Source: Victivallales bacterium (lineage in GTDB: Bacteria; Verrucomicrobiota; Lentisphaeria; Oligosphaerales; Oligosphaeraceae). Taken from it: a stretch of 37,445 nucleotides of DNA. The DNA is taken from assembly GCA_017548425.1 (NCBI GenBank), contig JAFZAB010000029.1, positions 1 through 37,445 of the forward strand, read 5' to 3'. Made by a program: the position numbers and the translations under genes. Below are positions 886-8,109 of the stretch, in pieces. Position 1 is the stretch's first letter. Each line of letters opens with the position of its first letter. Below the pieces are notes generated by a model. That model had not been told where the DNA came from and searched no databases. It saw only the letters and a list, made by a program, of their open reading frames with translations.

Positions 886-1725
886 TTACATGGCGAGAAT
901 CTTGTCCATGGCTTTGGACGTGCGGTCGAGCAGCGTCGGATCCGGCGGCATCATTTCGGCGGTGATGGTCTTGTCGTAGCCGATGCGATGGAGGGCGGAC
1001 ATCGTGTCGTCCCACGGGATGTCGCCGTCGAGCAGATCGCAGAAGCCGTCGAGCGTTCCGACGGAGAGTTTGAAATCCTTGATGTGGATGCGGTCGATGC
1101 GTTTGCCGAGGATTTCGATCCAATGGGGCGGCCACTGCTGGTGGTTGAGGACGTTGCCGACATCGAAATAGGCGCCGACGGCGGGATTGTTGATGCTGTC
1201 GATGAACGCGGCGAATTCGACGGGTGAGTACATGAAGCCGTTCCAGACGTTTTCGACGGCGAGTTTGACGCCGAGATCTTTGGCGGTCTGGCCGAGTTCC
1301 GTGACTGCGTTGCGAGCCCATTCGAGAGCCTTTTCATACGGGACAGGCTTGAAGGAGGGTTCCCATGGGATGACAACGGCGCCCGGAACGAAGAGGAGGG
1401 ATTTGCAACCAAGCCACGCGACGCGCTGCAAGGCGCCTTTGTGGAGTTCGATGGCCTGTTTGCGGACGGCGGGATCAAGGCTTGTGGGGCAGCATCCCCA
1501 ACTCATGCCGGAGGCGACGGATTCTAGTTTGATGCCGGCCTTTTCGGCGGCGGCCTTGTAGGCTTTGCAGTCGGCTTCCGATGTTTCGGGAGTCAGCGGG
1601 CCGCTTGTTCCGACGCAGAGTTCAAGGGCTTGGAAGTTGGCGTTTTTGGCCTGTTGAATGGCGTCCTGTGCGGAGCAGGAGCCGTCGCCGCCTTGTACGG
1701 ACCAGTAGCTGATGGCTTTGATCAT
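886..1725 (-). CDS. Sugar phosphate isomerase/epimerase (xylose-isomerase-like TIM barrel)
   Basis: The 279-residue product covers a whole AP-endonuclease-2/xylose-isomerase-like TIM barrel, the usual length for the family. The four expected metal ligands are visible at the ends of barrel strands: Glu158 (LAVENVW), Asp188 (YFDVGN), His214 (RIHIKDFK) and Glu257 (TAEMM). The pattern resembles L-ribulose-5-phosphate 3-epimerases and related keto-sugar epimerases. There is no signal peptide, so it should be cytoplasmic. The start is supported by AAGGAA about eight bases upstream. The gene stands alone on the minus strand, divergent from the fusion gene at 2011 and ending in a REP pair and a hairpin. 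The exact substrate cannot be read from the sequence; isomerisation or epimerisation of a rare sugar is inferred. Confidence 0.85.
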   Translation of the reverse strand: MIKAISYWSVQGGDGSCSAQDAIQQAKNANFQALELCVGTSGPLTPETSEADCKAYKAAAEKAGIKLESVASGMSWGCCPTSLDPAVRKQAIELHKGALQRVAWLGCKSLLFVPGAVVIPWEPSFKPVPYEKALEWARNAVTELGQTAKDLGVKLAVENVWNGFMYSPVEFAAFIDSINNPAVGAYFDVGNVLNHQQWPPHWIEILGKRIDRIHIKDFKLSVGTLDGFCDLLDGDIPWDDTMSALHRIGYDKTITAEMMPPDPTLLDRTSKAMDKILAM

Positions 1726-2010: not shown

Positions 2011-3276
2011 ATGGAAATTTTTGTAAAATTGAGTCCGTTCATGGTCAAGGCGGGCATTATCGAAGTCGGGCGGGACCGTTTGAAACAGGTGGCCCATAAA
2101 CTGGCGTTTCTGCTGGTGACGGAGGAGCTGTCGTTCAACAGCCTGCAGGAGCTGCTGACATCGTTTGACTGTCCTATCTACCGTTGTCTCACGGCTTTGG
2201 ATATTGAGAGATATTTCAATTTCAGGGGGACGAAAGTGTTGGGATTCCGTCGTAATGAATTGAGCGTGCAGGTGATGAAGGCGCTGAAAGGATATGACGT
2301 GAAGCGCGGTGAACGGATTCCGTCCCATCCGCGGGTGGCGATTCTGGGGGCGAGCGGAATAGGGCGGCATCATGCGAATTGGTGGCGGTTGGAAGGCGCA
2401 CAGGTGGTCGCATTCTTGGGAAGCAATGCGGAAAGCATTGCGAAAACGACGGATACGCTGAAGAGCATGTTCGAATTCAATGGCCGTGGCTACACGGATT
2501 TGCAGGAACTTTTGGCGACGGAGAAGCCAGACGTCGTGGATGTCTGCCTGCCGCCGAAGATGCATTACAACGCCGTGAAAACGGCGTTGGAGGCAGGTTG
2601 CCATGTGCTTTGCGAGAAGCCGTTTGTGTATGACGACGATTTAACGGCGGACGACATGTTGGCCCAGGCTCGCGAATTGACGCAACTGGCGGAAGAGAAG
2701 AAACTGTCGCTGGGTGTCTGCACACAGTATGTCATGGCGGCGGAGGAAATCCGCCGCCTGTGGCTGGAAGAGCATGCGGGAGAGAAAATTACGTCGTTCG
2801 AAGGTTGTCTGATTTCGCCGACGCGGAACCGTCCGCCAAATGCAAAATGGACATGGATTGATTTGGCGCCGCACATGCTTGGCGTGGCGCAAGTTCTCTC
2901 CGCCTGCGGCGACATCGACTGGTCCAACGTGAAAACGACTTTTGAAGGGCATCTGGCAGAAGCGACGTTCCCATGCAAGTGCCGTGACGGCTGTGTGATA
3001 GATTGTAAGATCACGACGTTCCACCGCGACGAAGAGCCGAAGAACGTGCGGCAGATCACGCTGAATGGCGAACTGTTCGACATCGGCGGTCATCTGGACG
3101 AGAACAAGATCTTCCAGATGGACATCAAGACGCCGAACGGCGTCGTTGAACGGCCGGACATGATGCGGTTGCTGATTCGCAGCTATATGCATGGCTGTCT
3201 GAACGTGCCCGGCAAGATGGCGCGGCAGAATCTGGAATGGATGCTGAAAGTGATTGAATTGGCGGAGAAGAAATGA
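2011..3276 (+). CDS. Fusion protein: N-terminal L7Ae/L30e-like domain and C-terminal Gfo/Idh/MocA oxidoreductase
   Basis: The 421-residue product has two parts. Residues about 8-95 follow the pattern of L7Ae/YlxQ kink-turn RNA-binding proteins: VKAGIIEVGRDRL, then hydrophobic strand LAFLLVTEEL, SFNSLQEL, CPIYR, and TALDIERYFNFRGTKVLGF. After a short linker (96-106), residues 107-421 form a Gfo/Idh/MocA NAD(P)-dependent oxidoreductase, with Rossmann loop GASGIG (113-118), the family CEKPF motif (201-205) and an Asp285-x3-His289 active-site pair. The start is supported by AGGAAAGAG upstream, and codon usage is uniform across both parts. The stop overlaps the start of the DsbD-like gene, implying translational coupling. 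The oxidoreductase assignment is firm. The L7Ae-like call is my reading of the pattern and needs structural confirmation. Confidence 0.85.
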   Translation: MEIFVKLSPFMVKAGIIEVGRDRLKQVAHKLAFLLVTEELSFNSLQELLTSFDCPIYRCLTALDIERYFNFRGTKVLGFRRNELSVQVMKALKGYDVKRGERIPSHPRVAILGASGIGRHHANWWRLEGAQVVAFLGSNAESIAKTTDTLKSMFEFNGRGYTDLQELLATEKPDVVDVCLPPKMHYNAVKTALEAGCHVLCEKPFVYDDDLTADDMLAQARELTQLAEEKKLSLGVCTQYVMAAEEIRRLWLEEHAGEKITSFEGCLISPTRNRPPNAKWTWIDLAPHMLGVAQVLSACGDIDWSNVKTTFEGHLAEATFPCKCRDGCVIDCKITTFHRDEEPKNVRQITLNGELFDIGGHLDENKIFQMDIKTPNGVVERPDMMRLLIRSYMHGCLNVPGKMARQNLEWMLKVIELAEKK

Positions 3277-4838
3277 TGGATTTTCGTCTCATGCGGAGTT
3301 TCAGACTTTTCTGCATCTTGTTGGGAATCACCCTTTTCGGGTGGTGCGCGTCGCCGTTTGACGTCAAAGCCGTCTTGACGGCGGCTGGCGAAAAGACGTG
3401 GAATCTGTCGTTGAGCTTCAAAGTCCCGCCAGAGCATCATGTGTATGAAGCGGATTTGAAAGTGGAGGCGGAAGGTCTTGAGTTGGAGCTTGTTGTGGGA
3501 GACAAGGCGGTCGATTTGGACGGCGATATGGTCTTCACGCATGACTTCCGGCGGGAATACCGTGTGAAGGGCGACGCGCAGGAGCCGTTGATTGTTTATG
3601 TGACGATGGTTGGATGTTCGGACAAAGGGCTTTGCTATCCGCCGGACAAACGTGAATTGAAATTGACATCGTCCGGCGGGGCGGAAGATGTCTCCAAGCC
3701 GTTGGATGATAGCAAGATGTCAACGGATTTGGAAGGCTTGTTGTCTTATTTCAAGACGGGCGGCGTCACGGAAGGCTACATGCGGCCGAAGGCATTTCTG
3801 GAATGGTTGGAAACGGCCCGCGAAGGGAAGACGGATGGTGATGGTAACTTGTTGCAGCGCATTCTATTGCGTTATGGATTATGGCTTGTGGCGTTGCTGT
3901 TGCTGCCGCTTGGGGCGATGCTGAATCTGACGCCGTGCGTGCTGCCGATGATTCCCATCAATCTGGCGATTCTGGGTACGGGGGCGAAGGATGGAAAGAA
4001 AGGCCGCGGCTTCGGCTTGGGGCTTGGATACGCGTTGGGCATGGCGTTGTCGTATGGCTTGCTTGGCGTCATCGTCGTCTTGACGGGAAGTCGTTTCGGG
4101 GCGATCAATTCGTCGGCGTGGTTTAATTTCGCCGTGGCGTTGGTGTTTTTGTTTCTTGGACTTGCGATGTTTGATGTCTTTTCGATCGACTTCTCGCGAT
4201 ATCGCGGGCAAGGCGGAATGCAACGTCGCGGCACAATGGTCGGCGCATTTCTGCTGGGCGGTCTGACAGCGGTTTTGGCGGGGGCTTGTGTCGCTCCTGT
4301 CTTGATTTGGGTATTGGTCATGGCGACGGAAATGTATGCCGACGGCAAGCAGATTGGTCTGATTCTGCCGTTTTTGCTGGGGGCGGGCATGGGATTGCCG
4401 TGGCCGTTTCTGGGGGCGGGGCTGTCCATGCTGCCGAAGCCTGGAGCGTGGATGGAAAAGGTCAAGAAGCTGTTCGGCGTATTGATTTTCGCAATGGCGG
4501 TTTATTATGCGCATGTTGGTTGGAACTTGTTGAATTGGAAGACGGAAGGCGTTTCAGCGGATGGCTGGCGGACGGATGTCGCGGCGGCGCTGCAGGATGC
4601 GTTGAAGGATGGTCGGCCTGTATTGGTGGATTTCTGGGGGATGTCCTGTAAGAACTGCGTCATGATGGACAAAACAACGCTGAAAGACAGAGATGTGGCG
4701 GAGTGGTTCGAAAAGAACAAGGCGGTTCTCTTGAAAGTGCAGGGCGACAATGAAGCGGACGCCGATGCGCAGGCGTTGATGAAACGCCATCAGGTCATCG
4801 GTTTCCCAACCTATGTGCTGCTGTTGCCAAATCGTTGA
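3273..4838 (+). CDS. DsbD-like thiol:disulfide interchange protein (cytochrome c biogenesis transmembrane family)
   Basis: The 521-residue product shows the three-part DsbD layout. A signal-like segment (about 10-27) leads to a periplasmic alpha-type domain with Cys115 and Cys121 (GCSDKGLCYPP). A multi-helix membrane domain carries the two conserved cysteines Cys222 (NLTPCVLPMIP) and Cys339 (AGACVAPV). A C-terminal thioredoxin domain has a Cys459-Lys-Asn-Cys462 active site and a cis-Pro GFPT loop. It would pass electrons from cytoplasmic thioredoxin across the inner membrane to periplasmic disulfide proteins. The ATG at 3273 overlaps the upstream stop (ATGA); a second in-frame ATG follows at 3276. 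The CKNC active site differs from the CVAC of E. coli DsbD. No lipobox is seen. Confidence 0.9.
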   Translation: MMDFRLMRSFRLFCILLGITLFGWCASPFDVKAVLTAAGEKTWNLSLSFKVPPEHHVYEADLKVEAEGLELELVVGDKAVDLDGDMVFTHDFRREYRVKGDAQEPLIVYVTMVGCSDKGLCYPPDKRELKLTSSGGAEDVSKPLDDSKMSTDLEGLLSYFKTGGVTEGYMRPKAFLEWLETAREGKTDGDGNLLQRILLRYGLWLVALLLLPLGAMLNLTPCVLPMIPINLAILGTGAKDGKKGRGFGLGLGYALGMALSYGLLGVIVVLTGSRFGAINSSAWFNFAVALVFLFLGLAMFDVFSIDFSRYRGQGGMQRRGTMVGAFLLGGLTAVLAGACVAPVLIWVLVMATEMYADGKQIGLILPFLLGAGMGLPWPFLGAGLSMLPKPGAWMEKVKKLFGVLIFAMAVYYAHVGWNLLNWKTEGVSADGWRTDVAAALQDALKDGRPVLVDFWGMSCKNCVMMDKTTLKDRDVAEWFEKNKAVLLKVQGDNEADADAQALMKRHQVIGFPTYVLLLPNR

Positions 4839-4994: not shown

Positions 4995-5066
4995 TGCTCG
5001 GCGGTTCGTCACGCTTCGCGCAAGTGCTAACAACGTCATGCGGAAGCTTGAAGCCCATAGTCTGTT
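4995..5066. repeat. 72-bp element, distant copy
   Basis: This single copy of the element at 517-660 keeps CTCGGCGGTTCGTCACGC, CGCGCAAG and CAACGTCATGCGGAAGCT. As at the first site, it follows an AACCACGAATG array downstream of a gene end. Between the array and this copy (4918-4994), and on to the promoter at 5159, I see no gene. The only further structure is a short palindrome, GCAGCTCCGCTGC, at 5117-5129. Confidence 0.8.
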
Positions 5067-6224: not shown

Positions 6225-7145
6225 ATGGCCAAGGCTAAGTCGAAGTTGAAGTCCAAAGTTTGTTTTGAAGGCGTGATGGCCGCGTTGCCGACACCGTTGA
6301 CCGATGACGGCGAAATCAAAGTCAAAACCGTCAAGAAACTGATTGACCATCTGCTGGATGAAGGACTTTACGGTTTTTACGTGACGGGAGCGACTGGCGA
6401 AGGTGCGTGCCTGTCCGCCAAAAAACGCGAAGTCATGGTGAATGCCGCCATCGAGGCGAACGCTGGCCGCGGCAAAGTCATCGTCCATATCGGTTCCATC
6501 GATCCGTATGAAGCGATGGCGTTGACGCGTCAGGCCACGAAGGCGGGTGCCGACGGCGTGTCCGCCGTGCCGCCAAACTACATGTTCGAATATGATGCGG
6601 ACGAAATCTGCGAATACTACACGCGTTTGGCTGGCGAAACGAATCTGCCGCTGTTGATGTACGCAACGCAGAAGACGGTGGCGTTGGACGTGAACGGCAT
6701 CATCGACCGGTTGTTGGCCGTTCCGAACATCGTCGGCGCGAAGGATACGCGTGCTAACTACTACAAAATGTGGCAGTTGAAGCAGTTGAACGGCGGCGAC
6801 GTCAACGTCATCAACGGGCCGGATGAAACGCTGATCTGCGGTCTGATGATGGGCGCGGATGGTGGCATCGGCAGCACGTACAACGTGATGCCGCGTTGGT
6901 TCTCCGAACTGTTCAAAGCGTTCCGCGCAGGCAAGATAGACGAAGCGAGAGCGATTCAGACGAAGATCAACTACGGTATTCAGGCGTTGCTCCGACTGGG
7001 TCGTGGCAATACAGTTCGCTCCGTCAAAGCGGCGTTGACGCTGCAGGGCTTCGACATGGGCCCCGCCGTTTATCCGGCCGGCCATTGCTCCGCCGATGAG
7101 ATGAAATATATCAAGAAAGAACTGAAGAAGGTTGGTATTCTGTAA
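6225..7145 (+). CDS. DHDPS/N-acetylneuraminate lyase family aldolase, tandem copy 1
   Basis: The 306-residue product belongs to the class I DapA/NanA aldolase family. Visible features are the keto-acid binding loop TGATGEG (54-60), Tyr146 (LMYATQK) in the position of the proton-shuttling Tyr, and the Schiff-base Lys173 (VGAKDT). GAGG about ten bases upstream supports the start. The next gene encodes a copy about 80 percent identical over its length. The N-terminus of this copy carries about eight extra Lys-rich residues. True DapA enzymes are usually single-copy, so these are more likely lyases for 2-keto-3-deoxy sugar acids or sialic-acid-like compounds, given the upstream Hyi-like enzyme. 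No nag or nan genes are adjacent, so the substrate stays open. Confidence 0.85.
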   Translation: MAKAKSKLKSKVCFEGVMAALPTPLTDDGEIKVKTVKKLIDHLLDEGLYGFYVTGATGEGACLSAKKREVMVNAAIEANAGRGKVIVHIGSIDPYEAMALTRQATKAGADGVSAVPPNYMFEYDADEICEYYTRLAGETNLPLLMYATQKTVALDVNGIIDRLLAVPNIVGAKDTRANYYKMWQLKQLNGGDVNVINGPDETLICGLMMGADGGIGSTYNVMPRWFSELFKAFRAGKIDEARAIQTKINYGIQALLRLGRGNTVRSVKAALTLQGFDMGPAVYPAGHCSADEMKYIKKELKKVGIL

Positions 7146-7209: not shown

Positions 7210-8109
7210 ATGTCCAAAGTTCGTTTTGAAGGTGTGATGGCGGCGTTGCCGACGCCGTTGACCGATGACGGCGAAATCAAAATCGCCACGGTGAAGAAGC
7301 TGGTGGACCATTCGCTGGACGAAGGTCTTCACGGTTTCTACGTGACAGGCGCGACTGGCGAAGGCGTTGCGCTGTCGGCGAAAAAGCGCGAGACGATGGT
7401 GAACGCTGTCATCGAAGCAAACGCGGGCCGCGGGAAAGTCATCGTCCATATCGGAGCGATTGATCCGTATGAGGCGATGGCGTTGACGCGGCAGGCGACG
7501 GCGGCAGGAGCGGACGGTGTGTCCGCCATGCCGCCGAACTACATGTTCGAATATGCCGCAGACGAAATCGTGGACTACTACACGCGGCTGGCCGGCGAGA
7601 CGAATCTGCCGTTGTTGCTGTACGCGACGCCGAAGACGGTCGCATTGGACATCAACGGCATCATCGAACGGCTGTTGGCCGTGCCGAATATCGTCGGCGC
7701 GAAGGACACCCGTGCTAACTACTACAAAATGTGGCAGTTGAAGCAACTGAACGGCGGCGATGTGAACGTCATCAATGGGCCGGATCAGATGCTGATCTGC
7801 GGCTTGACGATGGGAGCGGACGGTGGCATTGGCGGCACATACAGCGTGATGCCGCGTTGGTTTGCCGAATTGTACAAGTCCTTCCGTTCCGGAAAGATAG
7901 ATGAAGCACGTGCCATTCAGGCAAAGATCAACCATGGTATCCATGCGTTGCATACGATAGGCCAGGGGAACGGAATCCGTGGCGTCAAAACGGCATTGAC
8001 GTTGCAGGGCTTCGACATGGGGCCCGCCATTTGTCCGGCGGCCCGCTACACAGCCGATGAGATGAAGGAATTTGCGCAAAAACTAAAAGCGGTTGGTGTG
8101 TTGCAGTAA
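7210..8109 (+). CDS. DHDPS/N-acetylneuraminate lyase family aldolase, tandem copy 2
   Basis: This 299-residue paralogue of the preceding gene keeps the family features: TGATGEG loop (46-52), Tyr138 (LLYATPK) and Schiff-base Lys165 (VGAKDT). The two copies are nearly identical around the active site (for example KDTRANYYKMWQLKQLNGG). They diverge in the C-terminal helices, with LLRLGRGNTVRSVKAAL in copy 1 against LHTIGQGNGIRGVKTAL here. YATPK here replaces YATQK in copy 1 next to the catalytic Tyr. AGGA eight bases upstream supports the start. The clean head-to-tail arrangement points to a tandem duplication, with divergence that may reflect different substrates or a hetero-oligomer. Confidence 0.85.
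   Translation: MSKVRFEGVMAALPTPLTDDGEIKIATVKKLVDHSLDEGLHGFYVTGATGEGVALSAKKRETMVNAVIEANAGRGKVIVHIGAIDPYEAMALTRQATAAGADGVSAMPPNYMFEYAADEIVDYYTRLAGETNLPLLLYATPKTVALDINGIIERLLAVPNIVGAKDTRANYYKMWQLKQLNGGDVNVINGPDQMLICGLTMGADGGIGGTYSVMPRWFAELYKSFRSGKIDEARAIQAKINHGIHALHTIGQGNGIRGVKTALTLQGFDMGPAICPAARYTADEMKEFAQKLKAVGVLQ

Follow-up and report, generated by a model that had tools for sequence, protein, structure and literature searches.

A conserved fusion of a predicted L7Ae-fold domain with a Gfo/Idh/MocA-type oxidoreductase in Oligosphaeraceae

In L7Ae, RNA is contacted through the β1-α2, β2-α3 and α4-β4 edges, and the canonical pair of k-turn-contacting residues that follows a glycine is N-E in L7Ae and K-Q in YbxF. 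The YlxQ gene lies beside nusA/infB. In YbxF, the amides neighbouring G15 contact the k-turn, and a G15-to-D mutation was obtained from a suppressor selection (PMC9723947). The protein described here resembles YlxQ/YbxF (OapC; PDB 3v7q, 3on1) in its N-terminal part and the Gfo/Idh/MocA dehydrogenases (PF01408) in the remainder, with which it shares the Rossmann motif, the EKP lysine and D-x3-H. To our knowledge, the RNA-binding metabolic enzymes usually met with bind through the enzyme fold itself. Metabolic enzymes have been reported to bind RNA under the REM hypothesis (PMC10380284). The present fusion is alike in that it may connect a metabolic enzyme with RNA, but differs in that a dedicated domain of a predicted RNA-binding type is attached to the enzyme. 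The preliminary description knew of no described pairing of a ribosomal-type RNA-binding domain with a sugar dehydrogenase, and no paper combining L7Ae with MocA was found in the literature searched, which covered few subscription papers. Both domains are of known kinds; what appears to be new is their combination, together with an L7Ae-fold family that is not in Pfam.

The stretch of DNA analysed here, called the window, comprises 37,445 nt from a Victivallales bacterium of the Oligosphaeraceae (GCA_017548425.1, contig JAFZAB010000029.1, positions 1-37,445, forward strand). The genome's close relatives are rumen Victivallales MAGs, with RGIG7794 at 95% identity, and the isolate Oligosphaera ethanolica belongs to the same family. 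At 2011..3276 on the + strand, a single open frame of 421 aa joins an L7Ae/YlxQ-fold domain (residues 1-96; 2011..2298, +) to a Gfo/Idh/MocA-type oxidoreductase domain (residues 107-421; 2329..3273, +). The two are separated by a linker at about residues 97-106 (2299..2328, +), placed by the borders of the N-domain alignment A1 and the oxidoreductase alignment A3 and by a pLDDT of 52 in residues 101-105. The in-frame join seen in the preliminary description is thus borne out, and the search in related genomes that it had proposed brought the species with the same domain order to 17, the window's own included. An assembly artefact or a chance fusion is ruled out, because full-length fused matches occur in 16 further species, including O. 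ethanolica DSM 24202, where the fusion lies on a 5.7-Mb isolate contig. The fusion is, therefore, real and conserved. An alternative start near the oxidoreductase was also considered, but M89 is conserved in just 7 of the 26 sequences of A1, so that conserved internal initiation is not supported. Within genera, pairwise dN/dS runs from 0.10 to 0.14 in the N part and from 0.02 to 0.13 in the C part, which indicates purifying selection on both.

The oxidoreductase assignment made earlier from the GASGIG and CEKP motifs holds. The PF01408 model (GFO_IDH_MocA) matches residues 108-236 with an E-value of 2.3e-22 (80.3 bits, cut-off 24), and the Rossmann motif GASGIG, the CEKP lysine and D-x3-H (DLAPH) are intact. 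The E-K-P motif with its catalytic lysine (residues 202-204; 2614..2622, +) is kept in all full-length homologues aligned (28 homologues in A3), as is the D-x3-H motif (residues 283-287; 2857..2871, +), which occupies the catalytic Asp/His position. The protein differs from known members of the group in carrying the N-terminal L7Ae-type domain and in its distance from solved dehydrogenases (best E-value about 1e-11). Its C-terminal Gfo/Idh/MocA domain is divergent and matches no Pfam model at E-values up to 1. On these sequence features, this part of the protein is best read as a dehydrogenase of the Gfo/Idh/MocA type that depends on NAD(P) and retains its catalytic residues.

Taken alone, residues 1-105 of the N-terminal part reach the cut-off of no family in Pfam or NCBIfam, PF01248 (Ribosomal_L7Ae) has no match above cut-off in the window's own genome or in any of 60 relatives, and, when compared with 28 members of the N-domain family, it gives one match at E 0.12. 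AlphaFold on the single sequence is uninformative (pLDDT 48.8); with 14 homologues, it gives a model of residues 1-105 with a pLDDT of 90.8 and a pTM of 0.82, and a predicted element order of α-β-α-β-α-β-α-β-α. In a Foldseek search of the PDB, this model finds YlxQ first (9a5p, TM 0.77/0.80, rmsd 1.8), with further YlxQ matches to 3v7q (TM 0.76/0.82) and 3on1 (TM 0.74/0.78). The rest of the top 50 consists of Snu13, Nhp2, L7Ae, ribosomes and pre-ribosomes, the matching chains of the last two being, we assume, L7Ae-family proteins. The top matches to YlxQ, Snu13 and L7Ae, which share the three-layer α/β/α L7Ae fold, have a Foldseek probability of 1.00.

Sequence profiles are weakly but consistently in keeping with this fold. 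The profile of A1 (26 sequences) ranks 3on1 and 3v7q first, at E 0.11 and 0.14, and with the broader alignment A5 the match to 3v7q improves to E 0.0022. In profile-profile comparison with a YlxQ pair, A1 gives 4.2e-4 and A5 1.9e-5, against 0.54 for the dehydrogenase alignment used as a control. The NCBIfam model 'ribosomal protein L7Ae family protein' matches 13 of 26 and 17 of 28 members, at best 1.1e-6. Two alternatives were rejected: a winged-helix match (HTH_34, E 0.08) lies below cut-off and is contradicted by the predicted fold, and no methyltransferase with a SpoU-type L30e-like substrate-binding domain is named in the top 50 fold matches. The L7Ae/YlxQ-type fold that had been proposed from residue patterns is, thus, recovered by structure prediction and fold search, and the domain is best read, from its model, as belonging to the L7Ae/L30e superfamily, in which it is divergent and comes nearest in fold to YlxQ of bacteria. 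It is like YlxQ/YbxF in fold (TM 0.74-0.82), element order and weak sequence similarity, as well as in an invariant glycine at the β1-α2 edge, before helix 2; it differs in escaping PF01248 and in its partners, a dehydrogenase or an RNA helicase, to which it is fused or coupled.

That glycine, G20, is invariant in 26/26 and 28/28 N-domain sequences and corresponds to YbxF G15. It opens codons 20-26 (G-R-[DEQ]-[RK]-L-x-Q; 2068..2088, +), the equivalent of the k-turn-contacting loop of L7Ae/YbxF, as judged from the conservation of G20 and R21 in A1 and from the G15 contact (PMC9723947). R21 (invariant in A1), D/E39 and K75 are nearly invariant and lie at the β1-α2, β2-α3 and α4-β4 edges, respectively. 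The last of these belongs to codons 74-79 (T-K-x-x-G-F; 2230..2247, +), covering the α4-β4 loop and the start of β4, where T74, K75, G78 and F79 are kept in 25-26 of the 26 sequences. The domain is mostly basic. The canonical N-E or K-Q pair is absent, positions 22-23 being [DEQ]-[RK] in 26/26 sequences, and k-turn binding by this domain is, therefore, not assured; YlxQ itself also departs from the pair (G-E-D/E). A permutation test for extra polar conservation in the RNA-contact zones is not significant (p 0.08). An autoregulatory k-turn leader was rejected, since the only Rfam match in the window is a tRNA and the upstream region is not conserved; neither an Rfam RNA nor a conserved k-turn leader lies beside the fusion gene. 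The domain is best read as probably RNA-binding.

The family sample consists of 29 genomes, drawn from the 60 relatives searched plus the window genome. The fusion is found in 17 of them, and in G017 it is cut by a contig end; in G013, only a piece of the N part is present, at the end of a contig. In two genomes of one genus (G016 and G023), the fusion has an intact L7Ae-like half but a decayed dehydrogenase of some 156-160 aa, with CETP or CKTP in place of CEKP and no D-x3-H. In five of the 29 (G006, G008, G014, G018 and G025), the N part stands alone, and neither part was detected in three, all incomplete. Beyond the family, four species of two other families have the parts as adjacent genes with an ATGA stop/start overlap (4/4), and two further genomes (G029 and G037) have both parts on different contigs. 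Only the dehydrogenase was found in G032, G034 and three Candidatus Hydrogenedentota records. Nearly all genomes in which the L7Ae-like family is found have a single copy.

Homologues without residues 1-100 had been named in advance as evidence against the fusion. Such oxidoreductases, starting at the Rossmann domain, do exist, in the three Hydrogenedentota records and at four further loci (L023-L026), but since 17 species keep the fusion, they point to modularity and not to refutation. In the maximum-likelihood tree of the N part, N-only members appear at the base as well as within fused clades (G025 next to G009; G008 and G018 with G021), and G045, whose two genes are separate, groups next to fused genera with a support of 87/84. 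The tree does not resolve single from repeated fusion. We read the distribution as a coupled gene pair that gave rise to a fusion, followed by later losses.

The N domain is also present in a second class of the phylum, in 8 of 188 genomes. Four species from two families (three in one genus, the fourth in another family) have it as a free-standing gene whose start codon overlaps the stop codon of a DEAD-box helicase gene in the sequence TGATG; the helicases carry Helicase_C, DeaD-dimerisation and DbpA RNA-binding domains. This overlap, the strongest clue from gene context, supports, without proving, an RNA job for the L7Ae-like domain. At the loci inspected, most Lentisphaeria members do not lie beside RNA genes. 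As a separate observation, in G062 (L099:6113-6685), ~140 aa of N-terminal extension, with no match in Pfam, precede the L7Ae-like domain in a frame cut by the contig end.

Around the fusion gene, the surroundings vary. The 4-bp overlap (ATGA) with a DsbD-like gene (3273..4838, +; PF02683, PF11412 and thioredoxin domains) is real, and the same order is shared by another species of the window's genus. The gene is, nevertheless, a neighbour outside the conserved unit: it is not beside the fusion at the four loci inspected in other genera, and a general redox link, an extension of the possible link named in the preliminary description, is not supported, as DsbD adjoins the fusion only in the window's genus among the genera inspected. 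The divergent neighbour on the other side (886..1725, -) is a xylose-isomerase-like TIM barrel (PF01261), a protein that adjoins the fusion in genera g1 and g4 and hints at sugar or polyol metabolism. With the TIM barrel and DsbD in these places, nusA/infB is not beside the fusion in the window, and neither was recognized by eye at other loci. In several Oligosphaeraceae (five loci), a flavin amine-oxidase/desaturase-like gene precedes the L7Ae-like gene, whether this is fused or free, and a gene for an ATP-cone protein lies further upstream; in L086, the two match PF01593 and PF03477, respectively.

Repeats are another feature of the window. A 33-nt tandem array of 3.6 copies (1845-1962) lies directly upstream of the fusion gene; the corresponding regions of the close relatives G002 and G004, where aligned, show no such array. 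A ~72-nt repeat (GGCTCGGCGGTTCGTCACGCTTCGCGCAAGCG...) has three copies in the window, at 517-660 and 4995-5066, and 58 matches in the genome, often as tandem pairs. Two tandem paralogues of the DHDPS (dihydrodipicolinate synthetase) family (6225-7145 and 7210-8109) have 75-83% DNA identity over long stretches and, judging by this, are a tandem duplication.

With a confidence a little above even, we favour the reading that a divergent, unannotated L7Ae-fold family, probably RNA-binding, was first coupled in translation to a dehydrogenase and later fused with it, keeping an RNA job of its own besides its link to the enzyme. The L7Ae-like gene would first have been free-standing, the ATGA overlap would then have coupled its translation to that of the dehydrogenase gene, and the fusion would have followed in Oligosphaeraceae. 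Most likely, the N part would bind structured RNA (rRNA or another k-turn-like element), through the β1-α2 edge (G20-R21), D/E39 and the α4-β4 loop (T74-K75), and its job would not need the enzyme; the fusion would most likely either put the enzyme on an RNA or a ribosome-associated complex or let the cofactor or substrate state affect RNA binding. We infer the RNA binding itself; cross-talk between enzyme and RNA is possible, and any RNA target or direction of regulation is speculative. In favour of this reading are the predicted fold and profiles, the 17-species fusion, the ATGA pairs, the purifying selection on both parts, the retention of the N part where the enzyme is decayed or missing, the helicase overlap, the YbxF-equivalent glycine and the mostly basic domain. 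Against it stand the replaced canonical pair, the p of 0.08, the position of most Lentisphaeria members away from RNA genes, the lack of a k-turn leader or Rfam RNA, and the dehydrogenase homologues without the N part in other lineages.

The confidences expressed for this and the other readings are not exclusive shares. A substantial, though less than even, chance is given to a neutral fusion, in which coupled genes simply lost the stop codon between them, so that an RNA-binding protein and a dehydrogenase share a chain, each doing its own work without cross-talk. It would agree with the ATGA-coupled ancestors, with the occurrence of each part without the other and with the decay or loss of the dehydrogenase in some genera, but 17 species across the family have retained the fusion, and purifying selection acts on both of its parts. 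This account overlaps with the favoured one, because both keep RNA binding. A further form of the enzyme-RNA link, in which the redox or substrate state of the enzyme and an RNA, probably rRNA or an intermediate of ribosome assembly, control each other as an RNA-enzyme-metabolite switch, is doubtful. It is unlikely that the L7Ae-like domain now serves as a protein-protein or oligomerisation module and has lost RNA binding: the replaced pair, the non-significant RNA-zone conservation and the coupling to the enzyme gene in several families would suit such a module, but the domain persists where the enzyme is decayed or missing, overlaps an RNA helicase gene in another class and retains G20, R21 and K75. 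That residues 1-96 are an odd N-terminal extension of the oxidoreductase without an L7Ae fold, as the missing Pfam match of the window's own domain and the poor single-sequence model might suggest, is very improbable, given a confident alignment-based model that matches the L7Ae superfamily, free-standing genes for the domain and profile searches that pick YlxQ first.

The genomes provide a natural series, from the free gene through the ATGA-coupled pair and the fusion to the fusion with a decayed enzyme, with which it can be asked directly, on one protein, whether a metabolic enzyme is linked to RNA. More broadly, both Lentisphaeria and a second class of the phylum are seen to carry an L7Ae-fold family that Pfam does not recognize.
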